64,000 bases of DNA from Rhodococcus yunnanensis NBRC 103083 (lineage in GTDB: Bacteria > Actinomycetota > Actinomycetes > Mycobacteriales > Mycobacteriaceae), in contig NZ_BCXH01000010.1 in the NCBI RefSeq assembly GCF_001895005.1, forward strand, positions 124,001 through 188,000, written 5' to 3'. The stretch's first letter is position 1; every line of letters begins with the position of its first letter. Below the pieces are notes generated by a model. That model had not been told where the DNA came from. It saw only the letters and a program-made list of their open reading frames with translations, and did not search any database. This document shows positions 19,244 through 39,593 of this stretch, one piece after another. The position numbers were made by a program, and so were the translations under genes.

Positions 19244-20230
19244 TCACCACCATGGTCGCGACGACGGCTCCCAGTGGGGTTCGGGTCGCCACAACGTCTC
19301 GCCACTGACCTCGGGATCCGGGATTTCGACATCGAGAAAGCTCAGCTGCCCCGACTCGATGCGCGTCTCCTCTGCTGCCAGCTGGCGCGCCTGTTTCATC
19401 ATCCCCGGCTCACGCTGTGCGGCTTTGTTGTACAAATAGCTCATGATGTTGTCGCCAGCGATGTGATCAGTCGCGAAGACCATGTAGTACAACTCGGTCT
19501 CGTTCTGCATCGTCATCGGAATGGAATGTGTGACAGCGTAGCCGAGGTCCTCAGAGAGCTGCTTGCGAATGAGATTGACCATTTCGCGGCGATACTCAGA
19601 ACCCGAAATAGTCTTTCTGTCTCGTGCTCGCTGGATCCGCAGCCAGTCCTCTGTCCCGTACGACATAGACACGCGCTCACGGAAGCGAACATGACCGCTA
19701 CCGGTTGCACCCTTGATGACCATGGCTGGCGAGACAAGCATCCAGATCTCAGCCTTGGTTCTCGAGGTCGTCGGTTTGAACCGCGACACCTTTTCGATTG
19801 TGCTCCAGTGAATCTCGGCAGCCTGCTGGTCTGCAAACACGAACGTAGGCGCCCACGACACAGGCTTCAGCCTACGAAGCACCGAGTCGATCGTCGAATT
19901 GCAGTCGCCGGGGACCACATCGAATGTCTTGTGCGGGTATGTTCTTCTGAGGTTGTCTTCCAGAGCACCTGCGTTTTTCGGGAGTTCACAGAACGCATGA
20001 TGCGTGAAGCCCGGATCGGACTCGAGTGCGCGACGAGGTGACCCCGCGAGCTGCTTACCGGTGTACCGCTCGACGTTCGCAGCCTGGCCTGCCATCAGAT
20101 CGATATAGAGCCTCTCGTCCGATCGCTTCGCGGCTTTGTTGAAGGCCGGCAGATAGTCGCTCAGTATCTGCAGCTTGTTGACTGTCCAATACGACCACTC
20201 CCGTGGCGTTCTTTCCGACACCTGATCCAC
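19244..20230 (-). CDS. tcmP: Three-Cys-motif partner protein TcmP
   Basis: The protein has 328 residues and resembles the TcmP family, named for its association with three-Cys-motif Gp37-like proteins. The N-terminus REWSYWTVNKLQILSDYLPAF, followed by LYIDLMAGQA, looks like an AdoMet-methyltransferase-like first strand. The C-terminus QLSFLDVEIPDPEV is typical of the family. Its function is unknown. GTG 20230 abuts AGGG with no spacing; GTG at 20221 (codon 4) has better spacing and may be used. The stop touches the stop of the DUF5131 gene (19243/19244), so the pair is strictly convergent and must be made from separate promoters. Confidence 0.85.
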   Translation of the reverse strand: MDQVSERTPREWSYWTVNKLQILSDYLPAFNKAAKRSDERLYIDLMAGQAANVERYTGKQLAGSPRRALESDPGFTHHAFCELPKNAGALEDNLRRTYPHKTFDVVPGDCNSTIDSVLRRLKPVSWAPTFVFADQQAAEIHWSTIEKVSRFKPTTSRTKAEIWMLVSPAMVIKGATGSGHVRFRERVSMSYGTEDWLRIQRARDRKTISGSEYRREMVNLIRKQLSEDLGYAVTHSIPMTMQNETELYYMVFATDHIAGDNIMSYLYNKAAQREPGMMKQARQLAAEETRIESGQLSFLDVEIPDPEVSGETLWRPEPHWEPSSRPWW

Positions 20231-20838: not shown

Positions 20839-21735
20839 CTATGCGGATAGGGCAAGAGCGCTGCTCTGCCCCATGATGTTTCGGTTGATCTGATCCTTGA
20901 CGCTGGAACTGACGCCCGCTTCCTCGTTGCGACGCGCTGCCACTGCGAGGCGATCGGCAAGCTCGTTCAGTTCGTGGCCGGCGTGCCCGCGAACCCAGCT
21001 GTATCGGATGTCGCGGCCTGCCGCGCGGCGGTGAACTACATCGACGATTTCGACGACGTCACCGCGCCGCGTGTCGAGCAACCTCGCCCGCGACTTCCCC
21101 AGGCACGCCAGTGCTGGCTTGCTGTCGGTCAGAATGTGGAGACGACGGTCGGGGAATGTCTTGATCGCCAGGGCGATCGCGAGAAGCTCGCCGACGAGGA
21201 CGGTTTCGACGTCGGGATATGCCTTACTGGCAAACGCGCCTTCTGCGCTGACGCACCCCACTCCGACACCGCTCCTGCGTGTCGCCTTGGATGCGTCGGT
21301 TGCCACGGTCAACTCGGGGAGTGCCTCCCGTCTGGCCAGTTCTTCGGTCCACGCCCGGCGGTGAGCGAAGCGGGTGTAGTCGTCCAGGGCCTCGAGTGCC
21401 GTCCCGACCAGGTCGAGCAGCGGACCTCGTGCGACTGCAGCGACGCCGAGTCCGGGAAACGATTCCGCAACTGCCGCGATTTCACGCCGGAACGTGGTGT
21501 CCGCGATGTACAGGACACTCGGCTGATCGACGACGAGCAAAAAGTGCTCGAAGGCGTCCAGTGCGGCAGCATATTTCCCGTCACCGACCCGACTCGTGAA
21601 AACCTTTGCTTGCGTTCCGCTTTCGCAGGCCCACGCCAGGGCTACTTCCAAGTCGGCATCGGGCCCGACGTCGTTCCTACGAATATGAAGAGCTGCGAGC
21701 ACTGTGGCCTCCTCGGTTGGCTGTGGAATGAACAA
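20839..21735 (-). CDS. RNase H-fold protein with extra N-terminal domain
   Basis: The protein has 298 residues. Residues 143-270 form an RNase HI-type domain with all four acidic residues: D147 (VATDASK), E183 (VGELLAI), D204 (ILTDSKPAL) and D261 (GHAGHELNELADRLA). The first 140 residues are not a hybrid-binding domain that I recognise; they contain two Rossmann-like hydrophobic strands (FLLVVDQPSVLYIAD). Activity on RNA:DNA hybrids is likely from the intact active site. It is transcribed away from the restriction operon across a palindromic operator, so it may be co-regulated with it. Confidence 0.82.
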   Translation of the reverse strand: MFIPQPTEEATVLAALHIRRNDVGPDADLEVALAWACESGTQAKVFTSRVGDGKYAAALDAFEHFLLVVDQPSVLYIADTTFRREIAAVAESFPGLGVAAVARGPLLDLVGTALEALDDYTRFAHRRAWTEELARREALPELTVATDASKATRRSGVGVGCVSAEGAFASKAYPDVETVLVGELLAIALAIKTFPDRRLHILTDSKPALACLGKSRARLLDTRRGDVVEIVDVVHRRAAGRDIRYSWVRGHAGHELNELADRLAVAARRNEEAGVSSSVKDQINRNIMGQSSALALSA

Positions 21736-21773: not shown

Positions 21774-21791
21774 TGATAACCCGAGTTATCA
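21774..21791. promoter_or_regulatory. Palindromic operator TGATAAC-N4-GTTATCA, copy 1
   Basis: TGATAAC-CCGA-GTTATCA is a perfect 7-bp-arm inverted repeat, with a T before it as in copy 2. It lies in the divergent region between the RNase H gene and the methylase-fusion gene. The same site recurs at 36277 upstream of hsdR. Confidence 0.75.
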
Positions 21792-21884
21792 CCTCTTTGG
21801 TGCCAATGAAGCATTCCATGCGGTAGTTTTCAAGGGCTGGACCGACGCGTCCGAAGGACAACACTACCGAGGAGGTGCGACATC

Positions 21885-23975
21885 GTGGTTCAGCGAGTCA
21901 ACACTCTTCTCACGATGTCCGACATCGCCGCCTTGGCCCAGGTCCAGCGCCCGGTAGTGACAATGTGGACACGCCGCTACACCGGCAGTGACCGCCCCTT
22001 TCCTGCCCCCTCCCAGATACGTGGCCGGCAACGCCACTACGACGGTGACGAGGTGGTCCGCTGGATCGAGAGCAGAAACCTCGGCAACAACGACGCGCTC
22101 GACGAGAGCCTTGCCCTGCATGCGGCCCTGAACACGGGCGACGAGTTCGACGAAGACATCGTGTTCGACGGCATCACCGCACTCCTCTGCTTGAAGTGGT
22201 ATCTCGGCGGTCAGCTGAGCGAGTATTCATCCGCCGAGCTCCTCGACGAGGCCGACGAAACCGATCCCGACGACGAGTTTCTCTACTCGGAGATCGAGAC
22301 GCTCGGAGACGGCCTCACTAAGTTTGCCGAGTACACCGATCTCCTGGCAGATTCCGCATACGAACCGAAGTTCGCGTTCGAATCACTTGTGGCTCAACGG
22401 AACCGCTCGACGATCAGTAGCGATTCCGGTGGCCGAGTCTCCCCGCAGTGCCTGACGCTGTGCGCCGCGATCACCGCGGCGCTCACCGACCCCGACCACC
22501 ACGTCTACGTCGACCCCACCGCCGGCACCAGCGATTTGCTGGTCGCTGTCCGCGCCGGCCTTCCCGAGTACTCGGAACCGACGTCCATGTGCAATGAAAC
22601 CGGTTCACGTACCTCACGTTTGGCGCGTCGGCGTCTCGCCGTCCACGGTTGGGCGCGCGCGAGTCCGCCACGCGGCGGCTTCGGAACCGGCTTCGAGTTG
22701 TCGGGTCCGTCGGCGTTCGTCATCCAATACCCGTCGGCATCATCGCTCGGTCACACCGATGCACAGATACTGTCCGAGATCGACGACATTGCCGTCCAGA
22801 TGTCCGACGACCATGTCGCCGTTGTATTGGCCCCTGCCTCGGCACTGCTCGATGCGCAGCCGGACCCTGAGGCCGCACGCCTACGCTCGGACATCCTGCG
22901 GTCCGATCGCGTGCGCGCTGCGATTCGGCTGCCGGAAGGCCTCATGCCGGCCAGCCCTGGAACATCGCTGGCACTCTGGGTCCTGGGCCCCGCGTCCGAG
23001 GCAGTGCGGCCGGCCGATCGGTGGTCGGTGATCGTGGATGTCGGATCACGCGAACTCGATGACGCGACTACCGACGGATTGGTCTCCGATGTCGTTGCTG
23101 CGATGGGTGATTGGAACAGCATTCGTGCTCACGCTTTCCAGTTCGGCGTTCTCACCAAGACGTCGGTGCTGTTGGCGGAGGACAAGCGCGGACTCACTCC
23201 AACACGGATCAAGCGGCCTCGTGTTCGACGTATCGGTGCCGATCTCGCTGCCGAGATCCTCACGCGCTCGGATGCAATTCAACACACTCAGCTCGAATTG
23301 CGCCGCGACGTCCGTCTACCGGTCGAGTATCGAGCCGCAGACGGCTCTTTGCTGCCCACCCTCGGTCAACTCGCTGCGTCCGGTGAGCTGAAAGTGCTGG
23401 GTGGTCACAGGATCGAGCCCGGACACATTCTCGCCGGGGGAGCAGTCCGTGTGATCGGACTCGAAGAAGTGCTCGGTCAGATTGGGATCGGACAACGTGG
23501 AGTCGATCGCTTGCTGTTCACCGCGGCGTATCCCAGCGCCCGCTACACCGAACCCGGCGACATCGTGTTCACCTCGGGCGCGCGCTTCGGTGCGGTCGTC
23601 GATCACGACGGTTCCTCGGTCGCCGTCTTTCCAGCGCGAATCATCAGGATCGCCGACGCGACCTCCTCGGGCCTGATTCCCGACGTCATCGCAGGTCACC
23701 TGAATGCATCCGGCCTCGGCTCACGCCCACCGCGTGCCATCAGATCCAGCGCCACATGGAAACGCTGGGAAGTACCTCGCGTTCCACCAGAGACAGCTGC
23801 GGCGACGATCGATGCCGTCGATTCGTTGCGACGACATCGTGCGACCGCCGCGCAATTACTGGCCGAAATCGAACAATTAACAAGCACTCTCGTCGACGGA
23901 TTGGCGCACGGCGTGCTCACCGTCAGCGATGGTTCACGGGCTCCACAAGAAAGGTCTGCACAGAATGCCTCCTAG
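21885..23975 (+). CDS. HTH / degenerate HsdM-like methylase / TRD-like fusion protein
   Basis: The protein has 696 residues. Residues 9-64 form a MerR/excisionase-like HTH (TMSDIAALAQVQRPVVTMWT … YDGDEVVRWIESR). The middle part follows the HsdM fold: YVDPTAGTSDLLVAV (209-222) corresponds to the AdoMet-binding motif I, and IRLPEGLMPASPGTSLALWVLGP (347-369) matches the post-catalytic part of HsdM. The catalytic NPPF/Y is replaced by IQYPS (280-284), so adenine methylation is not expected. The C-terminal 220 residues (LGQLAASGELKVLGG… to IEQLTSTLVDGL) read like half of a specificity subunit. It overlaps hsdM by 11 bp. I infer a regulatory or targeting subunit of this type I system. A start slightly downstream (M11) is possible. 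Confidence 0.75.
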   Translation: MVQRVNTLLTMSDIAALAQVQRPVVTMWTRRYTGSDRPFPAPSQIRGRQRHYDGDEVVRWIESRNLGNNDALDESLALHAALNTGDEFDEDIVFDGITALLCLKWYLGGQLSEYSSAELLDEADETDPDDEFLYSEIETLGDGLTKFAEYTDLLADSAYEPKFAFESLVAQRNRSTISSDSGGRVSPQCLTLCAAITAALTDPDHHVYVDPTAGTSDLLVAVRAGLPEYSEPTSMCNETGSRTSRLARRRLAVHGWARASPPRGGFGTGFELSGPSAFVIQYPSASSLGHTDAQILSEIDDIAVQMSDDHVAVVLAPASALLDAQPDPEAARLRSDILRSDRVRAAIRLPEGLMPASPGTSLALWVLGPASEAVRPADRWSVIVDVGSRELDDATTDGLVSDVVAAMGDWNSIRAHAFQFGVLTKTSVLLAEDKRGLTPTRIKRPRVRRIGADLAAEILTRSDAIQHTQLELRRDVRLPVEYRAADGSLLPTLGQLAASGELKVLGGHRIEPGHILAGGAVRVIGLEEVLGQIGIGQRGVDRLLFTAAYPSARYTEPGDIVFTSGARFGAVVDHDGSSVAVFPARIIRIADATSSGLIPDVIAGHLNASGLGSRPPRAIRSSATWKRWEVPRVPPETAAATIDAVDSLRRHRATAAQLLAEIEQLTSTLVDGLAHGVLTVSDGSRAPQERSAQNAS

Positions 23976-25581
23976 GAAACGGGCGGTGACGGTCACCACG
24001 CCGTCGACCATGAAGGAACTGAAGGACACACTCTGGAAGGCTGCGGACAAACTCCGCGGTTCGATGGACGCGTCGCAGTACAAGGACGTCATCCTCGGGT
24101 TGGTGTTCCTCAAATACGTGTCCGACGCCTTCGACGAGCGTCGTGAGCGGATCCGTGCGGAGCTCGTTGCCGACGGGATGACCGAGGACCAGATCGGCGA
24201 CCTGATCGACGACGAAGACGAGTACCTCGGCAACAGCGTCTTCTGGGTTCCCGAGACGGCCCGCTGGAAGTACCTCGCGGAGAACGCGAAAGGCATTCAG
24301 GAGGTTGTGGGTACGGCCGGAAAGTCGACCGGCGAGTTGATCAATGCGGCAATGGTGTCGATCATGGCCTCCAACTCGACGCTGACCGGAACGCTGCCCG
24401 TTGTGTTCAACGACGACAGTATCGATCAACGCAGGCTCGGCGAGCTGATCGACTTGCTCACCGATACCCGCTTCACCGGGCATGGATCGACGAAGGCCCG
24501 AGACCTCCTTGGCGAGGTGTACGAATATTTCCTCGAAAAGTTTGCTCGCGCAGAGGGCAAGCGCGGCGGCGAGTTCTACACGCCCGCAAGCGTTGTCCGC
24601 GTGCTGGTCGAGGTACTCGAACCATACAGCGGCCGAGTCTACGACCCATGCTGTGGTTCGGGTGGAATGTTCGTTCAGACCGAAAAGTTCATCGAGAACC
24701 ACGGTGGGAACACCGCTGACGCTGCGGTCTATGGCCAGGAAGCTAACCAGCGCACGTGGCAGATGGCGAAGATGAACCTCGCGATCCACGGTGTCACCGG
24801 CAACCTCGGGGATCGGTGGGAAGACACCTTCGCTCACGACAAGCACCCAGACCTGAAGGCGGACTTCGTCCTTGCGAACCCGCCGTTCAACATCAAGGAC
24901 TGGTCGCGGCGTGAGGACGACAAGCGGTGGAAGTTCGGCGTACCGCCTGCCGGCAATGCGAACTATGCGTGGATCCAGCACATCATCTCGAAGCTCGCCG
25001 AGCGCGGTAGTGCGGGTGTAGTTATGGCGAACGGTTCCATGTCCTCCAACTCCGGCGGCGAGGGCGACATCCGTGCTCAGTTGGTCGAGGCAGACCTGGT
25101 GTCCTGCATGATCGCACTGCCGACCCAGCTATTCCGCAGCACCGGAATCCCGGTCTGTGTCTGGTTCTTTGCGAAAGATAAGACCGCCGGGCCCAAGGGG
25201 TCGATCGACCGACAGGGTCAGGTGCTGTTCATCGACGCCCGAAATATGGGCTACATGGTCGACCGGGCTGAGCGGGCATTGAGTGATGAGGATATAGCGA
25301 AGATTGGCAGAATCTTTCACGCCTGGAGGGGTACAAAATCGGCAACGGATACGGACTATTCGGATGAACCGGGCCTTTGCTACTCGGCCAGCCTAGATGA
25401 AATCAAAGCGGCGAGCTATGTTTTGAGCCCTGGTCGCTTTGTGCAGTCCGTCGAGGTCGAGGATGATGGGATTCCAATAAGCGACAAGATCGATCAGATC
25501 ACCTCAGTATTGTATCGGCAGTTCGAAGAGTCTGACCGCCTACAAGCAGTTATTCGCGAGCAGATGGCCCGCGTACGATGA
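23965..25581 (+). CDS. hsdM: Type I restriction-modification system, DNA adenine methylase subunit
   Basis: The protein has 538 residues from ATG 23965 (AGAAAGG upstream). The N-terminal helical domain (LKDTLWKAADKLRGSMDASQYKDVILGLVFLKYV) is the HsdM N-domain. YDPCCGSGGMFVQ (226-238) is motif I for AdoMet, and VLANPPFN (302-309) is the catalytic NPPF motif, so it should be an active N6-adenine methyltransferase working with HsdS. It overlaps the preceding fusion gene by 11 bp and hsdS by 4 bp (ATGA), showing one operon. Base composition visibly shifts toward A/T after about 25280, so the last 100 codons look like hsdS rather than the rest of hsdM. Confidence 0.95.
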   Translation: MPPRKRAVTVTTPSTMKELKDTLWKAADKLRGSMDASQYKDVILGLVFLKYVSDAFDERRERIRAELVADGMTEDQIGDLIDDEDEYLGNSVFWVPETARWKYLAENAKGIQEVVGTAGKSTGELINAAMVSIMASNSTLTGTLPVVFNDDSIDQRRLGELIDLLTDTRFTGHGSTKARDLLGEVYEYFLEKFARAEGKRGGEFYTPASVVRVLVEVLEPYSGRVYDPCCGSGGMFVQTEKFIENHGGNTADAAVYGQEANQRTWQMAKMNLAIHGVTGNLGDRWEDTFAHDKHPDLKADFVLANPPFNIKDWSRREDDKRWKFGVPPAGNANYAWIQHIISKLAERGSAGVVMANGSMSSNSGGEGDIRAQLVEADLVSCMIALPTQLFRSTGIPVCVWFFAKDKTAGPKGSIDRQGQVLFIDARNMGYMVDRAERALSDEDIAKIGRIFHAWRGTKSATDTDYSDEPGLCYSASLDEIKAASYVLSPGRFVQSVEVEDDGIPISDKIDQITSVLYRQFEESDRLQAVIREQMARVR

Positions 25582-26765
25582 CTTCTCGCAAGACACTTGG
25601 CGATGTTTGTTCAGCAATCGTTGACTGCGAGCACAAATCAGCACCGATCGATCCGATCGGAGACTATTATGCTGTAGGCACACCGGCAATGCGAACCGGA
25701 TACATAGACTACAAGGGTGCGCGCAGGATATCAGCGGCGACGTTCGAGCAGTGGACCCGACGACTAAGGCCAGAATATGGCGACCTGCTGCTCGCACGCG
25801 AAGCACCTGTCGGACCAATCATTCAGATTCCAATGAGTGAGAACATTGCGCCGGGTCAGAGAACCGTCCTTTTACGACCTGATCGCGGTCAAATTACATC
25901 TACGTACCTTTACTATCTCCTTCGGTCTCCTGATCAACAAACGCGACTGCTACAAAAGTCAGGCGGGTCCACAGTTGCCCATTTGAACGTCGCAGATGTC
26001 AGAGGATTTGGGCTTCCTACAATCCCTGACCTTGCTACCCAAGAGAGAATTTGCAGCGTTCTAAGGGCAATCGACCAAAAAATTGCATGCAACTCTGAAA
26101 TCATCGCGAACTCAGACATGTTGTCTGCGCTTGCATTTAGATCAATGTCCGAACTTTCCCAACATCGTCCGTTGTCGTCAATGGCAGAATTCATTAACGG
26201 AAAAGCCTTTACAAGGAATGCAAGCGGCACGGGCCGAGTGGTGGTTCGAATCGCAGAACTCAACTCGGGAATCGGGCCTTCAACAATTATGAGTGATGCA
26301 CTCGTTCCGCCACAGCATCTCGCAACAAAAGGGGACATTCTATTTGCTTGGTCAGGTTCCCTCACCCTCCATCGATGGTATCGCGACGATGCAATAATAA
26401 ATCAACACATATTTAAGGTGTTACCTATAGGCGACACTCCAAATTGGCTTATTTTCCAACTCATCAATAACAAGTTAAGACAATTCCAGGATATTGCAGC
26501 AGACAAGGCCACTACGATGGGCCATATCCAGCGCAAACACCTTGACGACCCTGTGCCGGTACCGAGATCGACGGATATCGACCGATGGGATCCACTTCTG
26601 TCCGCACTGTGGAGCAGGTCGTTGCTTGCGGAGGTCGAATCGGAGCATCTGTCGAAGCTCCGGGATCTATTGCTCCCGCAACTAGTCGCTGGGAGACTTA
26701 CAGTAGGAAATGCGGAGGAGCATGTTGGCGATCTGCCCACTAATGTAAGGAAAACTGGTGCCTGA
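25578..26765 (+). CDS. hsdS: Type I restriction-modification system, specificity subunit
   Basis: The protein has 395 residues with two target-recognition halves. The first is about 5-150 (LGDVCSAIVDCEHKSAP … FGLPTIPDLATQERICSVLRAIDQKI). The second is about 195-380 (LSSMAEFINGKAF … LDDPVPVPR … LRDLLLPQLVAGRL). Each half ends in the conserved helix that spaces the TRDs. It determines the bipartite DNA target for both methylation and cleavage. The gene is clearly richer in A/T than its neighbours, a usual sign of TRD replacement by transfer. ATGA overlap with hsdM and an 8-bp overlap with the PLD gene place it mid-operon. Confidence 0.92.
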   Translation: MTSRKTLGDVCSAIVDCEHKSAPIDPIGDYYAVGTPAMRTGYIDYKGARRISAATFEQWTRRLRPEYGDLLLAREAPVGPIIQIPMSENIAPGQRTVLLRPDRGQITSTYLYYLLRSPDQQTRLLQKSGGSTVAHLNVADVRGFGLPTIPDLATQERICSVLRAIDQKIACNSEIIANSDMLSALAFRSMSELSQHRPLSSMAEFINGKAFTRNASGTGRVVVRIAELNSGIGPSTIMSDALVPPQHLATKGDILFAWSGSLTLHRWYRDDAIINQHIFKVLPIGDTPNWLIFQLINNKLRQFQDIAADKATTMGHIQRKHLDDPVPVPRSTDIDRWDPLLSALWSRSLLAEVESEHLSKLRDLLLPQLVAGRLTVGNAEEHVGDLPTNVRKTGA

Positions 26766-27843
26766 ACTTGGCCTCGACGACCGCACCAGCCGACTTATCG
26801 CAGGTAGACGAACCTGGAATGAACTCTCTCTTGTACTGAAGCCATACTCGAGAACGCTGACCGCCGCCATCGCCTACATTGGTTCACAAGCAGCGCAGCA
26901 TCTTCCGCTGTTGGCAGGCTCGTCGATCATGGTCGATGCCTCTGATCGGATGGTTCGTTCCGGGTCCACCGATCCCCGGGTACTGCTTGCGTGGGTCAAG
27001 AGCGGCGTCACGGTCTACTCACTCGCCAACCTTCACGCGAAGATGATTCTCGCTGACAGTGCCTCCGCCGACGATCCGTCGTTTCTCGCAGTCGGCTCAG
27101 CCAACGCTTCTGGCGCCTCGGCGAGCCGCTTGTACGAGTCGATCATGCTGACGGACAACGACGAAACGATAGAGGAGGCGCGGGCAGCTCTCATCGATTG
27201 GAAAACCCGTGCGGGCAGCCCACTGACCATCAAACAGCTGGAAGAGCTCATCAAGCAGTACAAGGCCGACGACAACAGTAACGAGGAACCCGAAGGTGAC
27301 CCAGAGGCAGACGATGACGACGACCCCGAAGAGACCGAAACACCCTGGTCGCGAGCAACGTCGCTGTATATAGCTCCGATCGGCCTAGCCGGTGACCCGT
27401 CCGAGGAAGCATTGCACAAGCAAGAAGAACTGGCCGAGCAGTACGACTGCGCGGAGGAGGAAGATCAGTACTGGTTCGATATCAAGATGTTCTGGTGGGA
27501 TCAGGACACTGATCCCACCAGCGCGAGCGAAGGGACCTACCCGGAGGGGTCCCACGTGATCGTGATCAACGGAACAAGAAACGGCCAGATGCGCGCGACC
27601 TCCAAATTGACCGAGCCTGGGCGAGTTGTTCATAGCTTCACCGAAGACCTCGGGCGACTCACACGGACGTACTACTATATCCACACGAAACTTTCCGATG
27701 AAGAGCACACACTTGCCGACCTCAAGGCTGCGCTTGCTTCGGTGAACGACCAGGTCGACTACGACAGGCAATACCTACGGCGCCGCCAGATCGACGCGAT
27801 GCTCGATCTGTGGACAGATATCGAGTACAGCGAGGACCATTGA
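26758..27843 (+). CDS. Phospholipase D-like (HKD) domain protein in the restriction operon
   Basis: The protein has 361 residues from GTG 26758, overlapping hsdS. The N-terminal domain (1-150) is PLD-like: LHAKMILAD (H93, K95, D100) is one HxKx4D motif and VGSANAS follows. A second HKD is absent, so activity would need a dimer, as in Nuc/BfiI-type nucleases. Residues 171-197 are extremely acidic (EEPEGDPEADDDDDPEE), a flexible linker. The C-terminal 160 residues (WFDIKMFWWDQD…) resemble no domain known to me. The likely role is a nuclease or processing factor tied to the type I system. Its place in the hsd operon is clear, but the function is inferred. Confidence 0.78.
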   Translation: MPELGLDDRTSRLIAGRRTWNELSLVLKPYSRTLTAAIAYIGSQAAQHLPLLAGSSIMVDASDRMVRSGSTDPRVLLAWVKSGVTVYSLANLHAKMILADSASADDPSFLAVGSANASGASASRLYESIMLTDNDETIEEARAALIDWKTRAGSPLTIKQLEELIKQYKADDNSNEEPEGDPEADDDDDPEETETPWSRATSLYIAPIGLAGDPSEEALHKQEELAEQYDCAEEEDQYWFDIKMFWWDQDTDPTSASEGTYPEGSHVIVINGTRNGQMRATSKLTEPGRVVHSFTEDLGRLTRTYYYIHTKLSDEEHTLADLKAALASVNDQVDYDRQYLRRRQIDAMLDLWTDIEYSEDH

Positions 27844-27909
27844 GCGACAGCAAAACCGAAGCCCGGAAACGATCTCCCGGCTTCACTACATCCTGATGCC
27901 TTGCTTGGA

Positions 27910-29214
27910 ATGAGGAGGAAGAGAGCGATCCTCCGCACTGACGACAGCTGGGAGAAGTACGGCTTCACCGACGACGACCGGATTGCGTGGTTGCGTGGCG
28001 GCCTCACAAACGACGAGGCCCACTTCGCCGCAATGTGCCGGGGAGCGGTGTCCGTACCCGGCATCCGATTCACGCCCGAAAAACTGAAGTGGCTCATCGG
28101 CGACAGCACTGTCCTCGACCGTCTTCGTCGAGGCAAGAACATCATTCGCATCCAATTGGCATTCGCCGCTCACCGTGGCATCGAGCATACCGTCGACACC
28201 CGCCTCATCCGTGCCCTGGAATTGAAGACTGGCAAAGCGACTGAACTGCCGGATCTCGCGCACCTCGGGCCTCTGGCATTGACCGCCCGTGGACTACCAA
28301 GGGTCATCGACGGGCTGGCGATCCGCGCCGAGCACGTGGTCGACATACTCGGGCCTGTTATCGACCTGAGGCTGGAAGCCGATGTCTTCCGCACTACTGG
28401 GCTCGTGCGGCCACTGCTCACCCAGGCTGCCAAGGCACATGGAATCTACTCACGCGGCTCTGCGCTGGATGACTTCATTGCTGGCTTGGCGCTCGGAATC
28501 GGAGAGGTGCGCGGTTGTGTCGAAGCCGCTCACATCATTCGGAAAGTTGCGAGAACCAGGCGTTTCTACAGCATGCCGTCGGAGACCGCGAGCCTGCTCG
28601 GAGCCGCCTCGGAAAACGACATGCACGGCGCACCCGTTGCAGTCGCGGATCTCCCGTCCCATGACGGGGTGGCGCTCGTCTGGAACGACGAGGACAAACC
28701 AGAGTTTCTATTGAGTTGGACCAGCCACGGAGACAATATCGACATAGCACTGACCTCTGCGCGGTATCTCGCTCAGAAGGTCCTGGACGGCAAGAAAGCC
28801 AATGCGATCAAGTCCGCAACGGCGACGCTGCACCTCAGCGCAGATCACAGCGATCGCCCGCCCGTTGTCACGAAGACCAACGGCTCAGAGTCATCGGTCG
28901 TTCCGCTGTTCCTCGCCTTCGTCCACCTTTTTCGCGAACAACAGATGATCGAAAGAAGCGCGGTCGTTGCGGAACCGTCGACTGCGCCGCCGGAGCCAAT
29001 CCATGGCGCTCAGTCTCGCGATGAGGTTCAAGTACTGACGATCTCGCCACGAGCTGGCCTCTCGGAAACGAACGCCGGGCAACGCGTGCTCGATCACCGA
29101 TGGTTGGTTCGAGGCCATTGGCGCCGGAAGTGGTTCCCATCGCTGGGTGTCCACAAGCTCATCTGGATTGCCGAGCATCCCAGCGGACCGAGCGATCGAC
29201 CTCTGGTCGCTTGA
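27910..29214 (+). CDS. Unknown protein, about 434 aa, in the restriction island
   Basis: I do not recognise this family. ATG 27910 is preferred over TTG 27901, but neither has a convincing ribosome binding site. The central part has an actinobacterial look (LDDFIAGLALGIGEVRGC, MPSETASLLGAASENDMHGAPVAV). The C-terminus (VRGHWRRKWFPSLGVHKLIWIAEHPSGPSDRPLV) matches a tail seen in many uncharacterised actinobacterial proteins of replicons and islands. No signal peptide or membrane segment is present. It follows the PLD gene by about 65 bp on the same strand and probably belongs to the same transcript. Confidence 0.7.
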   Translation: MRRKRAILRTDDSWEKYGFTDDDRIAWLRGGLTNDEAHFAAMCRGAVSVPGIRFTPEKLKWLIGDSTVLDRLRRGKNIIRIQLAFAAHRGIEHTVDTRLIRALELKTGKATELPDLAHLGPLALTARGLPRVIDGLAIRAEHVVDILGPVIDLRLEADVFRTTGLVRPLLTQAAKAHGIYSRGSALDDFIAGLALGIGEVRGCVEAAHIIRKVARTRRFYSMPSETASLLGAASENDMHGAPVAVADLPSHDGVALVWNDEDKPEFLLSWTSHGDNIDIALTSARYLAQKVLDGKKANAIKSATATLHLSADHSDRPPVVTKTNGSESSVVPLFLAFVHLFREQQMIERSAVVAEPSTAPPEPIHGAQSRDEVQVLTISPRAGLSETNAGQRVLDHRWLVRGHWRRKWFPSLGVHKLIWIAEHPSGPSDRPLVA

Positions 29215-29326
29215 GACCGAGTTCTTGTAGTAAAACCGCGTACACGTTCACCGAGCAAGTGACTGTCAAGTCAATTCCGCTGATCAGCAATGTATCTCAC
29301 CGCAAGCAATGAACGGAAGGCAGGGA

Positions 29327-29758
29327 ATGACTGAAGACAATCCCTTGGCTGAGCTCTCGGAAGAGGACAGGTCCGCCCTGCGCAGTCTTGCAGACCGACT
29401 CGACGCCAACCCCGACGCGATTGGATCGTGGGTACTGCCGGAGCCGCTTGCGGACGGCAGTACCCACGTCGGCTACGTGGACTACGGATCTCTTGTTCAG
29501 GAGTTTCTCGAGTTCATGTACGCCAAGAACCTCGTCATCCAGTTCGACTGGCCCCGTTGGCGCGGGAAAGAAGTTGTTCAGGAGGGCAACGTCCGAGAGA
29601 TCAACACGGCGACACCAGACGATGCTCTGAAATATCTCACGGTCATGATCCGAGCGGATCGCTTCAGCGAGGGCGCTTTACTGGACGCATTCGAGAACGG
29701 TCTCGTCTCCTGCGCTCTCCATCGAGTTCTCGGTCATCCGGCCGCAAGCCAGAGATAG
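29327..29758 (+). CDS. DUF6508-like protein
   Basis: The protein has 143 residues. ATG 29327 is preferred to ATG 29309 because GGAAGGCAGGGA precedes it. The core IQFDWPRWRGKEV, followed by ATPDDALKYLTVMIRADRFSEGALLDAFENG, matches the DUF6508 pattern (FDWP…, then an RADRF-E-G helix). This family is small, cytoplasmic and unassigned, and is often found in mobile or defence contexts. It lies 112 bp after the unknown 434-residue gene. Confidence 0.75.
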   Translation: MTEDNPLAELSEEDRSALRSLADRLDANPDAIGSWVLPEPLADGSTHVGYVDYGSLVQEFLEFMYAKNLVIQFDWPRWRGKEVVQEGNVREINTATPDDALKYLTVMIRADRFSEGALLDAFENGLVSCALHRVLGHPAASQR

Positions 29759-29813
29759 CATCGAAACCGATCGACGACGACCGCAGTCAAGTACTCACCC
29801 GAGCTTCGTACCC

Positions 29814-30800
29814 TTGCGCCGCCTGACCAGGCACAACTCCGCTCTGTTGGTTGTGCAGACATATGCCGATTGCCGCCAATATGCTGTCCGAGTGGCCAAC
29901 CTCCCGCCCGTGCAGACCATCGAATCCTTCGTTCTCCGCGCGCGACGCATATGCGCACACTCCCTAATGCAGGGCGAGAATCGAGCGCTGTTGCACACTC
30001 GATACAAGGGCGACATGACCATCGAGATAACCAAGACCCACAAAACGGGAGCAGTTTCTTACGAGATGGTTCGGCGCTACCCCGATGAGGAAACGATGGA
30101 ATCGCTGGCTGCCCGCGTTCGACCGCTCATGCTCGGCAGTGAAACGATTGCCTTCAAGAAGGTCATCGACGCTTTGAGAACTATCATCAAGACAACGAAA
30201 CTCCCCGATGAGTTCGAACCGTTGACCACCTGGCTGGGCGAGTGGAACCAACTGGTGCTGCGCGGAACTGACAATGCGCAAGCTCTCGCGATTCAGACCG
30301 ACGAAGGCATGGTCACCGACCGGGACCTCATGTACTCATGGCTGTACGGAGACGTGGTGCATTCGAACGCACAAGAAGACGTCAAAGGCGCAACCTACGA
30401 ACAGCGATATTTCGGCGCAGTCGATGTGCTGGCGCGAATCGTCGACTTCGTTGAAAGCGCACTCTATCTCGTGCATAAGTTGTACGAAGAAGGTTTCGTG
30501 AAGATGGACGCCCGAGTCTTCGAGGAAGGGGTGACAGTTCGCGACACCACCAAGCGCCTGCCAGTCGTCGGGGCGTATGCCCGCGAAGTAACGGATGAGG
30601 GCCCGCCCGACTTCGAAAGTATCGATTTAACTCAGTGGGAGAACGGGTTTGAGTTAATGGAGGAAGTGTTACAGCACGATGTTTGTACGCGATGGAGTAT
30701 GCGTGCCGCTGGTTCTCAAATCGCACCGCCGGCCACTGCCCTTATGCGGCAGCTGTGGGACTCAATTGCGTCGCAAATGGAACCAGCCATTGGCCAGTAG
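29814..30800 (+). CDS. Unknown protein, 328 aa
   Basis: No family recognised. The frame has the compositional look of a real gene and no competitor. The start is uncertain: TTG 29814 is the earliest, and an internal ATG at 30016 (MTIEITKTHK) is a strong alternative with GGGCGAC upstream. Predicted all-soluble, rich in acidic and aromatic residues (YSWLYGDVVHSNAQEDVKGATYEQRYFGAVDVLARIVDFVESALYLVHKLYEEGF). The helical central part and VVHSN could suggest a ligand- or nucleic-acid-binding helical protein, but this is a guess. It is the last plus-strand gene before the minus-strand block. Confidence 0.6.
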   Translation: MRRLTRHNSALLVVQTYADCRQYAVRVANLPPVQTIESFVLRARRICAHSLMQGENRALLHTRYKGDMTIEITKTHKTGAVSYEMVRRYPDEETMESLAARVRPLMLGSETIAFKKVIDALRTIIKTTKLPDEFEPLTTWLGEWNQLVLRGTDNAQALAIQTDEGMVTDRDLMYSWLYGDVVHSNAQEDVKGATYEQRYFGAVDVLARIVDFVESALYLVHKLYEEGFVKMDARVFEEGVTVRDTTKRLPVVGAYAREVTDEGPPDFESIDLTQWENGFELMEEVLQHDVCTRWSMRAAGSQIAPPATALMRQLWDSIASQMEPAIGQ

Positions 30801-31014
30801 TCGACTTAGCAAGCGCGCGGTTGCCTGCGACGGCGTCAACGTGATCTCCTAGCCACATCGGCTTTCTGTTCACCGGGCGGCACGGTCGGCCTGATCGCAA
30901 GCCCCAACGTAGCTTGCTCTCCATGCCACAGACTCAGCCAAAGATGGTTGTAACGTCTTGAGCGTGTCGGTTGTCTTTTACAGCGCAGCGCAGCGCACCT
31001 GTCAAAGCGACAGG
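30801..31014. other. Convergent intergenic region with small hairpin
   Basis: It lies between convergent genes. The only structure is CCTGTC-AAAGC-GACAGG (30998-31014), directly against the stop of the minus-strand gene. It has no T-run on either side and is at most a weak terminator. Confidence 0.4.
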
Positions 31015-32082
31015 CTATTCGTCGTCGATCCAGTAGTCGAGAGTCGGCATCGGGCTAGTTCGGGCCGCTTGCAACCTGGCATGGCCAATCGCCTTTCCGA
31101 GGGGGGTCAAAACGGCCATTCCGAAAGCGGACCCCTCCAGGACCAAGAGTGATGCCATACAAGGCCCAGCCTTCAGCAACTGAACACTCGCTTCCTCATC
31201 TGTCATCCGGTGCAAGTCGACGAGCCGCTTCAATTCTGCTGCGACAGCCTGACTCCAAGGCGGGAACGCATCGTCGACACTCCAGTATTCGTAGCCCTTT
31301 CGCACCACGAATTTGTCGTCGAAGATAGGGTGTGGTGCGAGAAGGTACTCGGCGCTGAACTCGGTGAGCGGCGGCTTCATCTCATCAAGCATGAAACCAC
31401 GGGTGAACAGTCCCGGCCAGGATTTGGTGAACGACCCAGCAATTGGCAAGGGGATTGGGACGATCGTCACCAAGCCAAGGGAGCCGAGATGAAGTATCGC
31501 GGCGTCTCGGCGCGTCAGGTCGTTGATGAGTTCTGGCAGACCCTCGGACCAGTCTTGGAGCGCGCCTTCGATCGTCGAATACTGTCGAATGCCGGCGTAG
31601 CCCTGGATCGCGAAAAGGACTGCAAGAGTGGAGAGATGCGCTTTGGGTAGTCTGGGGACAATCGGTACCGCGTCACTGACCACGCAGGACAGGAACGACT
31701 TAGTTGCTGAGTCAGCCGCTGTCACCACAAGGTCGGTGAGCATCTGCGCTGTCGTGACGTCGCCGCCGGCTGCTTGCTGCTGTACAGCGTTCAGGAAGAT
31801 TGCATTTTTCTCGGGTATGCTGAGTTGGCTAAGCGGAACCTGTCGGTCGTGAAATGACTCGACAAGAAATCCAACCATTTTCTTTTGAGTCTCCTCGCGT
31901 TCTCGGATGACGTTGTTGTCGTACTCGTAAATCATGCTGAGGACAGTGGCTTTTATCGTCGCCGGGTCTGCCATCTGCGAGATGCTGACGTTTACGTCAC
32001 GGCCAGCTTGATTGAGCGTCGCGCCATCCTGACCGCGCATTGCAAGACTGGCGTCACGCTTTCGACTCAGCCAAAATCTCAC
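31015..32082 (-). CDS. Unknown 355-aa protein with N-terminal QAGRD motif
   Basis: GTG 32082 overlaps the stop of the upstream small membrane gene by four bases. After a basic N-terminus, residues 24-34 read NQAGRDVNVSI, a short strand-forming motif of the RHIM-like/amyloid-signalling type found at the N-termini of actinobacterial NLR-like receptors. Next comes a long soluble region: a helical segment (IYEYDNNVIREREETQKKMVGFLVESF), then alpha/beta sequence to residue 355. There is no NTPase motif. It may belong to the group annotated LPO_1073/Vpar_1526, which I cannot confirm. The motif matches the C-terminus of its operon partner, suggesting that the two proteins interact. Confidence 0.7.
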   Translation of the reverse strand: MRFWLSRKRDASLAMRGQDGATLNQAGRDVNVSISQMADPATIKATVLSMIYEYDNNVIREREETQKKMVGFLVESFHDRQVPLSQLSIPEKNAIFLNAVQQQAAGGDVTTAQMLTDLVVTAADSATKSFLSCVVSDAVPIVPRLPKAHLSTLAVLFAIQGYAGIRQYSTIEGALQDWSEGLPELINDLTRRDAAILHLGSLGLVTIVPIPLPIAGSFTKSWPGLFTRGFMLDEMKPPLTEFSAEYLLAPHPIFDDKFVVRKGYEYWSVDDAFPPWSQAVAAELKRLVDLHRMTDEEASVQLLKAGPCMASLLVLEGSAFGMAVLTPLGKAIGHARLQAARTSPMPTLDYWIDDE

Positions 32083-32369
32083 GATTCCTGCCTGTCTTCG
32101 CGCTCGATGGTGAGGTCTCGGCCTGCCTGATATCCCCGGGCTTTACCTGACAGTTCCTGTCGCTGTGAGAAGTGTTCGTTGGATTCTGGTTTCGACTTAG
32201 CGACTCCCCAAACCGTGAGAGCCAGGGCGACGATTGCCACTGCAATCGCGACGTAGGTTGACGTTGACCACAGTGGCACGTCGTCGCGTCGAACGATCAC
32301 GCCCCAGACTGCTGCATCGGCCGCAACGATTGCCAGTCCGATCGTTACGTAGTGTCCGCTTCGCGCCAT
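32079..32369 (-). CDS. Two-TM small membrane protein with C-terminal QAGRD motif
   Basis: The protein has 96 residues from ATG 32369; the longer frame to 32507 adds a non-conserved-looking basic stretch. Two membrane helices (about 7-26 and 38-56) form a hairpin. A polar linker follows, then YQAGRDLTIERE at residues 80-91. The partner gene, overlapping by GTGA, carries NQAGRDVNVSI at its N-terminus. In bacterial amyloid-signalling pairs a membrane or lytic effector bears the motif at one end and the neighbouring receptor bears it at the other, as here. A pore-forming role is inference. Confidence 0.65.
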   Translation of the reverse strand: MARSGHYVTIGLAIVAADAAVWGVIVRRDDVPLWSTSTYVAIAVAIVALALTVWGVAKSKPESNEHFSQRQELSGKARGYQAGRDLTIEREDRQES

Positions 32370-32508
32370 TCGACAATTATGGCCTTGTGGGCCGACAGGT
32401 TCAGCCAAAAGTGGCGACGACTTGCTACCCGGTACGACAAACTGGTGTTGACGTACCAGGCGGGTGCGCTTCCACATTGCGGTTTTCCTATAGTCTCGCC
32501 ACATCACC

Positions 32509-32530
32509 TTCTATGAAACACGCCATAGAA
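32509..32530. promoter_or_regulatory. Inverted repeat TTCTATG-N8-CATAGAA
   Basis: Seven-base arms with an 8-nt spacer lie between the lipoprotein stop and the two-TM gene. It could end the lipoprotein transcript or act as an operator for the QAGRD pair. There is no T-run. Confidence 0.45.
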
Positions 32531-32560
32531 CAGCGTGGTCCGGCTATCGGGGACCTGCCA

Positions 32561-33109: not shown

Positions 33110-33164
33110 GCCGTCTCTACCGTCCGGCGGGCGTCTACCGTTACAGTCCGTGAGCTTCGTTCGC

Positions 33165-36276: not shown

Positions 36277-36296
36277 TTGATAACCTCTGTTATCAA
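36277..36296. promoter_or_regulatory. Palindromic operator TTGATAAC-N4-GTTATCAA, copy 2
   Basis: Perfect 8-bp arms (TTGATAAC-CTCT-GTTATCAA) sit in the divergent region between the membrane-protein gene and hsdR. The arms match copy 1 at 21774; the 4-nt spacer differs, as expected for a protein-binding site. A second palindrome, ATGTTG-GA-CAACAT, lies at 36378 near the hsdR start. Confidence 0.75.
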
Positions 36297-36401
36297 CGCA
36301 ACAGACCTGAGTCATGCCGAGGCCCTATAACCTTCGGCTGACGAAGAAGTTTCAGCACCGACCGACCGTTACCGTTTATGTTGGACAACATGGGAGCAGC
36401 G

Positions 36402-39400
36402 ATGAACTCGTACGGACCGTCCGAGGACGACTGGGAGCACATGGCTCTGGACAACCTCGGCGAACTCGGGTGGCGTCATGTCGACGGCGCCGGCATCGCA
36501 CCCGGAACTGGTGAGCGCACCGGGTGGGACGAACTGCTCATCCGCCCGCGTCTGCGCGCTGCTATTGCGAAATTCAACCCGCACTTGCCGTCATCGGCCG
36601 TCGAGGACGCCGTATCCATCGTCGCCACCGCCGGATCGACCGACGCGATCTCCGAGAATCAGGTGGTGCACGAGTACCTGACCGAGGGCCTGCGCAAAGT
36701 CTCCTACGTCGATGACTCGGGTGCCTCCGTCACTCCGACCATTCGCCTGTCGTCCATGGACCCTGACGAAAACGATTGGCTTGCAGTCAATCAGGTGACT
36801 CTCGTCCGCGGAGACTTCAAGCGTCGGTTCGATATCGTGCTGTTCCTCAACGGCATGCCGGTCAGCGTGATCGAACTGAAGAAGGCCGGCAGCGCGAACA
36901 CGAATCTCAGCCAGGCCCATGCTCAGTTGCGCACGTATGTACGTGAGTTTCCTCTGGCTTTCAGGTTCGCCGTGTTCAGCCTGGTGTCCGACGGCATCGC
37001 AACGAGGTACGGAACTCCCTTCACCGCGTTCAATCACTTCTCGCCTTGGAACGTGGACGACGACGGTAAGCCCGTCAGCTACGACAACGCCGACAACACC
37101 CCACTCGGAACAGCGTTGTTCGGGCTCTACAACCAGGAACGATTCCTGCAGTTGATGCGTGACTTCACCGCGTTCGACAAGGGTGACACCGGCCTGGTCA
37201 AGCGTATTGCGAAGCCACACCAATACTTTGCCGTCAACAAGGCCGTGGGCTCGACCGTCCTTGCCGTCGAAAGCAACGGCAAAGCCGGTGTCGTATGGCA
37301 CACGCAGGGGTCGGGCAAGTCCATGGAAATGGAGCTGTACACCAACCAGGTGCTTCGGCACCCCAAGCTCGCCAACCCCACCATCGTCGTCATCACAGAC
37401 CGCAACGAGCTCGACGGCCAGCTGTACGAGACGTTCGCCCGTTCGCGGCTACTCCCAGGGGAGCCCAAGCAAATCCGTAGGCGCGAAGAACTGCGCGCGG
37501 AGTTGTCCGGACGCAACACCGGTGGAATCTACTTCACTACCCTCCAGAAGTTCGGAAAGACCAAGGGCGAGCGTGAGTCCGGAGAGAGCCACCCGCTGCT
37601 CTCGGCGCGTCGAAACATCATCGTCGTCGTCGACGAGGCGCACCGAAGCCACTACGACAACCTCGATGGATACGCACGACACCTGCGGGATGCGCTTCCT
37701 CATGCCACTTTGATCGCATTCACCGGTACGCCGATCTCGTTCGACGACAGAAATACTCAAGACGTCTTCGGCGATTACATCGACATCTACGACCTCACTC
37801 GCGCCGTGGAAGACGGTGCGACGGTTCCCGTCTACTTCGAGAGCCGACTGGTCAAGGTCTCCTTCGCCGAAGGCATCAGCGAGTCCGACCTCGACGCATC
37901 GGCCGATGAGGCGACCGTCGGTCTGGACGACACCGAGCGCAAGCGCATCGAGGACAGCGTCGCGGTCATCAATGCCGTCTACGGCAACCCTGACCGCTTG
38001 AAGAAACTTGCGTCCGATCTCGTCGAGCACTGGGAAGGTCGCCGAAAGGCCATGACTGCGTTCCTCAGCACCGACGAGCACCCGGACACGCCGGGCAAGG
38101 CGATGGTCGTCGGCGCGACCCGTGAAATTTGCGCAAACCTGTACTCCCACATCATTGCTCTTCGTCCTGATTGGCATTCCGACGACCTGGCCAAGGGCAA
38201 GATCAAGGTCGTCTACTCCGGGGACGCGACCGATGAGGAACCGATCAGTCTCCATGTGCGGCGCGACTCGGCCAACGCAACGGTCAAGAAACGCATCAAG
38301 AATCCCGACGACGAACTCGAACTCGTGATCGTCAAGGACATGATGCTCACCGGGTTCGACTCGCCGCCGCTGCACACCATGTACTTGGACCGCCCGCTCA
38401 AGGGCGCGCTGCTGATGCAGGCGCTCGCGCGAGTCAACCGCACCTTCCGCGGCAAGCAAGACGGCCTGCTCGTCGCCTATGCTCCCGTCGCCGACAATCT
38501 TGCGAAGGCACTGGCGGAATACACTGCGCAGGACCAGAAGTCGAAGCCGATCGGCCGTGACATCTCGGCCGCAATCGATGCGGCGAAGGACTTGGTATCC
38601 ATCATCGAGGGTCTGCTGCATGGATTCGACTGGCGGGCCGAGCTGAGTGCTGCCAAGACCGGCCGTGCGTACTACGACGCTGCAACTGCGACCGTGAACT
38701 ACCTCCGTGATCCACGCCTTCCCGAGAATCGGGTAGGCGAGGGGGAGGAAACGCTGGCGGCTCGCTACCGCAAGTTCTCGTCGCAGCTGTCGCGCGTATG
38801 GGCAATATGTGGCAGCACAGAGGATCTTCGAGACGTTGCGCCCGTCGCGCGATTCTTCGAGGAAGTACGCGTCTACATGGCCAAGTTCGACGCGGAGGAG
38901 CGTCAAAGCCGCGGCGAGGCAGTGCCTGAGGACGTCCAACGTGCATTGCGTCAGTTGATCGCGGCATCCGTCGAATCCGGCGAAGTCCTGGACATCTACG
39001 CCGCAGCGGGCATGCCGAAGCCGTCGCTCAGCGACATCAACGTCGACTTCATCAAGAAGGCACAGGAAGCCAAGAATCCGAACCTGGCCATCGAGGCACT
39101 GCGGAAGCTCATCAACGACGAGTCCAAGGCCGCTACCAAGCACAACGTCGTCCGTCAGCGCGCGTTCTCCGATCGTCTCTCCGAGCTCATGCTGAAGTAC
39201 ACGAACAGCCAGCTCACCTCGGCCGAGGTCATCGCCGCGTTAGTGGAGATGGCCGAGGAGGTCGCAGCGGAGGCCGATCGCGGCGCCAAATTCACGCCGC
39301 CTCTGACGAGCGACGAGCTGTCCTTCTACGACGCCGTTTCGCAGAACCAGTCGGCCGTCGATATCCAGGGCGAAGGCAAGCTCGCCGATATCGCACGTGA

Positions 39401-39593
39401 CCTCGTCGGCGTCATGAAACGAGATGCAAAGACGGACTGGACGATTCGAGCGGACGTCAAGGCAAAACTGCGCTCACAGATCAAAAGGCTCCTCACGCGG
39501 CACGGCTACCCGCCGGACAAGCAGCCCGAGGCCATCAAGCTCGTCATCGAGCAGATGGAGTTGATCGCCCCCGTCTTCGTGGCGGGGTCGTGA
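36402..39593 (+). CDS. hsdR: Type I restriction-modification system, endonuclease/translocase subunit
   Basis: The protein has 1063 residues. ATG 36402 is preferred because GGGAG lies five bases upstream; ATG 36378 or 36390 would add 8 or 4 residues. The N-terminal nuclease domain has FDIVLFLNGMPVSVIELKK (D144, E158-x-K160) of PD-(D/E)xK type. Helicase motifs follow: HTQGSGKS (300-307, Walker A), VVVDEAHRSHYD (411-414 DEAH), FTGTP (440-444), and later LTGFDSPPLHTMYLDRPLKG and QALARVNR of the second RecA domain. It translocates and cleaves DNA when bound to HsdM/HsdS at unmethylated sites. It is separated from hsdMS by about 10 kb and has its own promoter region with the shared palindrome. Confidence 0.95.
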   Translation: MNSYGPSEDDWEHMALDNLGELGWRHVDGAGIAPGTGERTGWDELLIRPRLRAAIAKFNPHLPSSAVEDAVSIVATAGSTDAISENQVVHEYLTEGLRKVSYVDDSGASVTPTIRLSSMDPDENDWLAVNQVTLVRGDFKRRFDIVLFLNGMPVSVIELKKAGSANTNLSQAHAQLRTYVREFPLAFRFAVFSLVSDGIATRYGTPFTAFNHFSPWNVDDDGKPVSYDNADNTPLGTALFGLYNQERFLQLMRDFTAFDKGDTGLVKRIAKPHQYFAVNKAVGSTVLAVESNGKAGVVWHTQGSGKSMEMELYTNQVLRHPKLANPTIVVITDRNELDGQLYETFARSRLLPGEPKQIRRREELRAELSGRNTGGIYFTTLQKFGKTKGERESGESHPLLSARRNIIVVVDEAHRSHYDNLDGYARHLRDALPHATLIAFTGTPISFDDRNTQDVFGDYIDIYDLTRAVEDGATVPVYFESRLVKVSFAEGISESDLDASADEATVGLDDTERKRIEDSVAVINAVYGNPDRLKKLASDLVEHWEGRRKAMTAFLSTDEHPDTPGKAMVVGATREICANLYSHIIALRPDWHSDDLAKGKIKVVYSGDATDEEPISLHVRRDSANATVKKRIKNPDDELELVIVKDMMLTGFDSPPLHTMYLDRPLKGALLMQALARVNRTFRGKQDGLLVAYAPVADNLAKALAEYTAQDQKSKPIGRDISAAIDAAKDLVSIIEGLLHGFDWRAELSAAKTGRAYYDAATATVNYLRDPRLPENRVGEGEETLAARYRKFSSQLSRVWAICGSTEDLRDVAPVARFFEEVRVYMAKFDAEERQSRGEAVPEDVQRALRQLIAASVESGEVLDIYAAAGMPKPSLSDINVDFIKKAQEAKNPNLAIEALRKLINDESKAATKHNVVRQRAFSDRLSELMLKYTNSQLTSAEVIAALVEMAEEVAAEADRGAKFTPPLTSDELSFYDAVSQNQSAVDIQGEGKLADIARDLVGVMKRDAKTDWTIRADVKAKLRSQIKRLLTRHGYPPDKQPEAIKLVIEQMELIAPVFVAGS

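Follow-up and report, generated by a model that had tools for sequence, protein, structure and literature searches.

Regulatory methyltransferases of Type II restriction-modification systems carry an N-terminal helix-turn-helix (HTH) and control their own gene and sometimes the R gene, according to PMC12707154, which also describes the C proteins, whose autogenous control is linked to restriction. In the case of M.Ecl18kI, PMC3695355 reports that its own gene is repressed and the R gene activated, and that this regulation survives the loss of methylation but needs the methylation domain, which is what a regulator made from a dead enzyme requires. Few Type I systems have a transcriptional controller of their own on record (PMC12255303, PMC12707154). 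ClpXP-mediated proteolysis of HsdR is among the known forms of Type I control (cited in PMC12255303), and the same source describes RptR, a repressor of Type I restriction-modification islands in Gammaproteobacteria that is the first gene of its locus, is autoregulated and has a conserved site. Here we analyze a 64,000-nt stretch of Rhodococcus yunnanensis NBRC 103083 (contig NZ_BCXH01000010.1; hereafter the window), in which the 696-aa product of the open reading frame (ORF) at 21885..23975 (+), here named DM, is probably a transcriptional controller dedicated to its own Type I restriction-modification system and derived from a methyltransferase that no longer has its catalytic motifs. Neither a controller made from a pseudo-methyltransferase nor the DNA dyad reported below was found described in the open-licence literature.

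The ORF, alignments and a structure model divide DM into a winged HTH-like domain (residues 5-65, 21897..22079), a degenerate HsdM-like methyltransferase domain (residues 187-440, 22443..23204), a target-recognition-like domain (TRD; residues 490-625, 23352..23759) and a long C-terminal helix (residues 635-674, 23787..23906), all on the plus strand. The HTH-like domain is the probable operator reader, assigned from the E-HTH-EE-H order in the model, from alignments and from comparison of recognition helices; folded in isolation, this region reached a pLDDT of 48.6, too low for use. The pseudo-methyltransferase was delimited by the structure model, a fold search and motif comparison, and the HsdM fold extends over residues 68-443. 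The fold search matched the model to the M-TRD fusion methylase 7eew_A up to residue 681, which together with the model itself defines the TRD, and PacII M1M2S is among the other matches. By the secondary structure of the model, the C-terminal helix appears to resemble the conserved helix of half an HsdS and may have a role in dimerization.

At the catalytic positions, alignments place IQYPS (22722..22736, +) over the NPPF region, giving QYPS for NPPF/Y, and motif I for AdoMet, DPxxGxG, reads DPTAGTSD, with the second glycine gone. Judged from the loss of motifs I and IV, DM is likely methylase-dead. The degenerate motifs and the HsdM fold thus bear out the sequence-only reading of this ORF as an HsdM relative that is methylase-dead and has an HTH and a TRD of its own. 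No family in Pfam, NCBIfam or PADLOC matched DM; the Pfam N6_Mtase family gave 0 matches for window DM and a weak one for 1/26 relatives (best E 0.021). Searched against PDB chains, the single sequence returned nothing relevant and the DM profile only 2okc (E 0.047). DM has a single match in its own 6.37 Mb genome, and phages yielded one weak half-length match.

A protein search scored 7998 candidates and gave 214 matches, 120 of which were listed. Those listed with an organism are all actinobacterial (Rhodococcus, Prescottella, Arthrobacter, Pseudarthrobacter, Cryobacterium, Georgenia, Pseudonocardiaceae and others), full-length relatives occur in distant genera, and the usual annotation is "hypothetical protein". 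Locus L076 is labelled Sporosarcina, yet its system is Arthrobacter-like, so contamination or mislabelling is likely. For locus comparisons, we used the window and 80 further loci (the best 80 of 180 matching in one genome-collection scan; n=81), with hsdM 62-88% identical to that of the window (tblastn, L002-L081). In 80/81 loci, hsdM lies directly 3′ of DM, overlapping or abutting it; in L080, it lies 3 kb further on. The proposal that DM is conserved and tied to hsdM therefore stands. The QYPS replacement is not uniform among relatives, whose variants include QFPS, QLPP, LPY or nothing alignable at motif IV. In the window, DM is followed on the same strand by an intact hsdM (NPPF) at 23965..25581, whose ORF could also start at 23929, by hsdS at 25578..26765 and, remote from hsdS, by hsdR at 36378..39593, identified by family matches. 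An hsdR is present within the examined flank of 55/81 loci.

Aligning the regions upstream of DM revealed a dyad with the consensus TGATAAC-N4-GTTATCA. The window carries it at 21774..21791 (TGATAACCCGAGTTATCA, predicted operator 1), upstream of the DM-hsdM-hsdS operon, and at 36278..36295 (TGATAACCTCTGTTATCA, predicted operator 2), 82 nt before the hsdR start codon; neither site has an assigned strand. These are the only window sites at three or fewer mismatches to the consensus, a result equalled in 0/100 shuffles. Across the whole 6.37 Mb genome, TGATAACNNNNGTTATCA occurs exactly twice, with one more site at two mismatches and none at one. It is the presence of the same dyad in front of both the DM operon and the separate hsdR that points to DM as a switch.

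We scored dyads as matches out of 14 within 300 nt upstream of a gene. All 81 loci have the dyad upstream of DM, 80 with the N4 spacer and L080 with N3, a spacing accepted for that locus only; scores are at least 10/14 in 80/81 and at least 12/14 in 67/81. As controls, the regions upstream of hsdM reach at least 12/14 in 0/81 and at least 10/14 in 10/81 loci, and those upstream of hsdS in 0/75 and 1/75, respectively. Elsewhere in the examined DNA of the 81 loci, there are nine sites of at least 12/14, seven of them directly before hsdR; the other two lie at the edge of L063 and, in irregular form, in L025. Where the hsdR start could be read (55 loci), 15 have a dyad of at least 10/14 within 300 nt: 15/34 where hsdR begins more than 400 nt past hsdS, 0/18 where it closely follows hsdS and 0/3 without an hsdS call. 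The second site therefore appears where hsdR needs a promoter of its own.

The dyads also stand at a near-constant distance from a predicted promoter element. In the window, the predicted -10 hexamers TAGTTT of the DM operon (21824..21829, +) and TAACCT of hsdR (36328..36333, +) both lie 41 nt from the dyad centre. Across the main set, the distance from the centre to the start of TANNNT is 40-44 nt in 74 loci; in 5 others it is 52-53 nt, longer by roughly a helical turn (79/81 together), compared to a mean of 1.1 and a maximum of 5 of 81 for random anchors. For hsdR dyads, the -10 is at +41/+42 in 10/15, at +51 in one and absent in four. There is no conserved -35 upstream of DM (about 0-0.2 bit over the 81 loci), and a weakly conserved TGTC-like element (up to 0.3 bit) precedes the -10 by 13-17 nt in many loci. 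Five plasmid records with DM, four of them typed conjugative, have hsdM, hsdS and hsdR after DM, and their upstream DNA was absent from motif discovery; the dyad is present with a -10 at +40/+41 in 5/5. This test has limits: a protein from Arthrobacter sp. U41, probably that of L214, was already in the protein alignments, and L216 shares the coordinates of G275:C2 and is probably the same plasmid, although the upstream DNA of both L214 and L216 was first looked at here. The annotation of L218 splits DM, hsdM and hsdR into pieces, and in this record hsdS is separated from hsdR by other genes.

To follow presence and absence, we used a class sample of 393 genomes, with 2-3 candidates scored per genome and cut-offs of E<=1e-120 for hsdM, 1e-20 for DM and 1e-60 for hsdR. 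It contains hsdM at 35 places in 34 genomes, DM in 20 genomes and hsdR in 32. Six of the 35 places were left out of the clade count: five in a sister clade (hsdM 49-52%, hsdR present, DM absent) and G581 (hsdM 50%, a long branch, neither DM nor hsdR). Among the remaining 29, DM and hsdR are both present at 18 (including G637, with hsdR on a separate contig), both absent at 11 and mixed at 0. Read directly, the 11 DM-less places retain hsdM and show weak DM remnants in two (L169, L170) and hsdR remnants in two (L170, L171); a relative of the window hsdS adjoins hsdM in 5/11. Absence of DM, without effect, from otherwise identical systems had been named as a finding that would refute the sequence-only reading, and these loci all lack an intact hsdR nearby (11/11) and are therefore not otherwise identical. 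On a tree of 58 HsdM proteins (the window, 34 class-sample places and 23 of the 80 loci), DM changes seven times and hsdR six; of six independent pairs on well-supported branches, hsdR changes in the same direction as DM in five, shows no difference in one and changes in the opposite direction in none. The co-loss of DM and hsdR is strong as a pattern, with few events behind it.

The dyad follows DM in this sample. Of the 18 places with both DM and hsdM, 16 have a dyad of at least 10/14 (the window, L137, L139-L147, L150, L167, L216 in G275, L193 and L195; 12/14 for L193, from G539), and the other two (L148, L149) have a variant dyad. Among DM-less hsdM loci (12-19 kb each), a dyad of at least 12/14 is found in 0/17. 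In the window genus, 3/37 genomes have DM and the same three a close hsdM (at least 79%), with a fourth having a 40% hsdM and no DM. Sites at one or fewer mismatches occur in 3/3 DM genomes (2, 2 and 1 sites).

We propose that a DM dimer would bind the dyad through the N-terminal HTH and, once bound, would jointly set transcription of DM-hsdM-hsdS and of hsdR, activation being the likelier mode. The pseudo-methyltransferase, TRD and C-terminal helix would form a dimer scaffold, a sensor of HsdM or DNA, or both. DM would thus act like M.Ecl18kI and M.SsoII, with the catalytic job passed to a separate HsdM. Of the three roles offered by the sequence-only reading, that of a regulator is now the best supported, by way of a conserved operator that it had missed. 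The idea that DM reads methylation gained no support here, and neither did the role of targeting subunit. HsdS identity averages 0.25-0.37 in every bin of hsdM distance, with a few close pairs at 0.5-0.7 (75 loci), whereas the TRD of DM varies in step with the rest of DM and is not a hypervariable, swapped domain of the HsdS type. This lack of diversification, the loss of DM from hsdR-less loci and the dyad before hsdR led us to reject targeting as the main role.

HsdS is often replaced while DM stays the same. In L002 and L003, DM is 95% identical and HsdS 20%, and dS is 1.08 for hsdM versus 0.12 for DM; the M-S cassette has therefore been exchanged under a constant DM. The recombination boundary was placed near the DM/hsdM junction. 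A tentative and rather doubtful extension is a licensing switch. In it, the dead HsdM-like domain would dock on HsdM or compete with HsdM for a partner of both, DM occupancy of the two dyads would thereby report the amount of working methylase in the cell, and restriction would come on only once modification is secured, whatever the HsdS. Because HsdS is exchanged under an unchanging DM, HsdM would be the only route by which DM could sense whether the system's changing targets are modified.

Several observations weigh against DM as the controller, or against parts of that proposal. One of the three DM genomes of the genus (G315) has a single site at one or fewer mismatches, and 19/34 distant hsdR genes have no dyad directly in front, although these may be read from an upstream gene. 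G583 (L191:8461-10518, +) encodes an intact DM, and the 19 kb examined there contain no hsdM, hsdS or hsdR match. The sign test on the independent pairs gives p 0.0625. The -10 offsets counted over the 81 loci were picked after the geometry was first seen, the plasmids alone being a later test, and four of the five loci with longer spacing are Rhodococcus/Prescottella (the fifth is from Micrococcaceae), so that they perhaps represent two events. The direction of control is deduced from geometry: the dyad just upstream of the -35 position, the constant helix face and the missing -35 suggest activation over repression, yet actinobacterial promoters often have no -35. DM might instead be a repressor that keeps hsdM, hsdS and hsdR low, which we consider somewhat unlikely. 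RptR, whose gene lies upstream, represses a Type I locus (PMC12255303), a C-family protein appears to repress the hsd operon of Mycoplasma gallisepticum (PMC12707154), and a dyad ending about 8 nt before the expected -35 could hinder polymerase; however, the dyad stops short of the expected -35 and -10 and does not cover them, and the one-turn-longer spacing in 5/79 loci fits activation better, as does the lack of a conserved -35. The assignment of the HTH as dyad reader, which we favour from sequence comparison, meets objections as well. Loci L148 and L149, from one genus, have GTTAAG-N4-CTTAAC as their dyad and VSRQAVSMW in the recognition helix instead of the usual V[QR]RPVVSMW, but this covariation is one evolutionary event: five genomes of that genus yielded no further members with the variant dyad, and 35 genomes of a sister group only known members and one fragment. 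L064 has the helix VQRPPVSMW (V24 to P) with an ordinary dyad, and covariation between operator and protein over the 81 loci favours neither the HTH nor the TRD. In L143, L144 and L167, a helix P is changed to A and the dyad is ordinary. DM could instead recognise the dyad with its TRDs, in the form of a dead M-TRD dimer whose HTH has another job, and the Type I-like bipartite appearance of the half-sites GATAA-N8-TTATC, the extent of the 7eew_A match and a TRD as constant as the rest of DM would agree with this. Given that the 11-bp half-site spacing suits an HTH dimer and that L148 and L149 alter the dyad together with otherwise near-invariant recognition-helix residues, we think it unlikely.

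The remaining explanations give DM no part in control. As an enzyme subunit, DM would pair with HsdM and add a second, fixed specificity, in keeping with its retained HsdM-like fold, TRD and C-terminal helix, its overlap or contact with hsdM in 80/81 loci and the existence of two-M complexes such as PacII M1M2S. This would leave the dyad before hsdR unexplained, and the erosion of the methyltransferase core in L145, L146, L147 and L150, where HTH, TRD and dyad persist, as well as the loss of DM from loci without hsdR that keep hsdM, makes it improbable. Since binding of the dyad by DM is predicted from sequence, another host regulator could be the reader, and 4/34 DM-less genomes of the genus have one similar site. 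Three of these four share a different, TATA-centred palindrome, however, and in the fourth (G325) no part of the system lies within 16 kb of the site; with a dyad that tracks DM across genera, is missing from 17/17 DM-less hsdM loci and occurs in the window genome only at DM and hsdR, we regard such a reader as very improbable. Finally, DM evolves faster than hsdM, and the eroded cores might suggest a decaying passenger gene, but dN/dS is 0.15-0.28 in 8/8 pairs, which rules out a pseudogene, and the full-length relatives in distant genera and the constant operator leave this explanation next to no credence.

Described systems close to DM include M.Ecl18kI, M.SsoII and M.EcoRII, which have an N-terminal HTH on a methyltransferase fold, as DM does, and which bind a site at their own promoter, Ecl18kI and SsoII also affecting the R gene. 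DM likewise has a conserved site at its own promoter (81/81) and before hsdR (15/34 distant genes), and its control of both is predicted. M.Ecl18kI and M.SsoII are described as active cytosine-5 enzymes, whereas DM has an N6-adenine, HsdM-type fold with both motifs degenerate. Unlike the regulatory methyltransferases, DM has its own TRD, a separate intact HsdM, a Type I system and a second operator before hsdR. It would work in the manner of a regulatory methyltransferase without belonging to that class, because motifs I and IV, and with them apparently the active methylation that is one of its defining features, are lost. C proteins are small stand-alone HTH proteins, unlike the 696-aa DM with its pseudo-methyltransferase and TRD. 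RptR is also the first gene of a Type I locus with a conserved site, but it is a 9 kDa protein that binds TAGCTA repeats, two of them overlapping the -10, whereas DM has 696 aa and a methyltransferase fold, and its single 18-bp dyad precedes the -35 position and lies about 41 nt upstream of the -10. Type I HsdM and the M-TRD fusion methylases (7eew) share the fold of residues 68-443 and the M-TRD-helix order; DM differs in the lost catalytic motifs, the added HTH and the lack of a Pfam N6_Mtase match.

Orphan HTH-N6 methyltransferase-TRD proteins of actinobacteria (L154-L156, L161) share a related HTH and the domain order with DM and probably represent its active ancestor type. Those of L154-L156 differ in keeping DPACGTG and HPPF, in having no close relative of the window hsdM beside them and in their upstream dyad. 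That dyad, common to the three and close to TGTGAACCG...CGGTTCACA, suggests that the orphan enzymes also regulate themselves. A sister lineage may have taken a parallel route to a Type I methylase that regulates itself: at L166:2873-4600 (-), an HTH_17-like domain is joined directly to an intact HsdM that retains NPPF, and the inverted repeat upstream (GGGTTAAG..CTTAACCC) is a different one.

Further observations concern the neighbours of the system. In the window, the RNase H-domain gene at 20839-21735 (-) is divergent from DM, so that operator 1, between the two, could act on both; the gene is also found in most Rhodococcus-type loci and not in Arthrobacter-type loci. Beyond it, 19244-20230 (-) matches the PADLOC candidate defence family PDC-M41A, and further defence genes may be present in this island upstream of the system. 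The hsdS-hsdR interval (26758-34184) encodes PLD-like, DUF6508, LPO_1073-family and Fic-domain proteins and two unknown proteins (27901-29214, 29814-30800), and such cargo varies among loci. A MADS system was considered and rejected, as hsdM and hsdS match the MAD2/MAD5 models far below the curated cut-offs. In L191, a dyad variant (11/14) is upstream of DM and a Fic-domain match adjoins on the opposite strand; G222 and G343 have DM fragments without a close hsdM. Two Streptomyces plasmids have a second dyad (L216:4011, 13/14; L217:5860, 11/14) in front of a gene for an AAA ATPase, the -10 here being at +42, on which ground the predicted regulon may include such neighbouring genes.

If the proposal is correct, a family mostly annotated as hypothetical, in several actinobacterial genera and orders, would be a two-site regulon controller derived from a pseudoenzyme. 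It would explain how hsdR can lie many genes away from hsdM and hsdS and yet be coordinated with them, and how HsdS can be exchanged without rewiring of control, while the AAA ATPase dyads hint that neighbours can join the same switch. DM would be a case of an enzyme that became a transcription factor, in which the stages of motif loss can still be traced among present-day relatives and the operator is directly testable.

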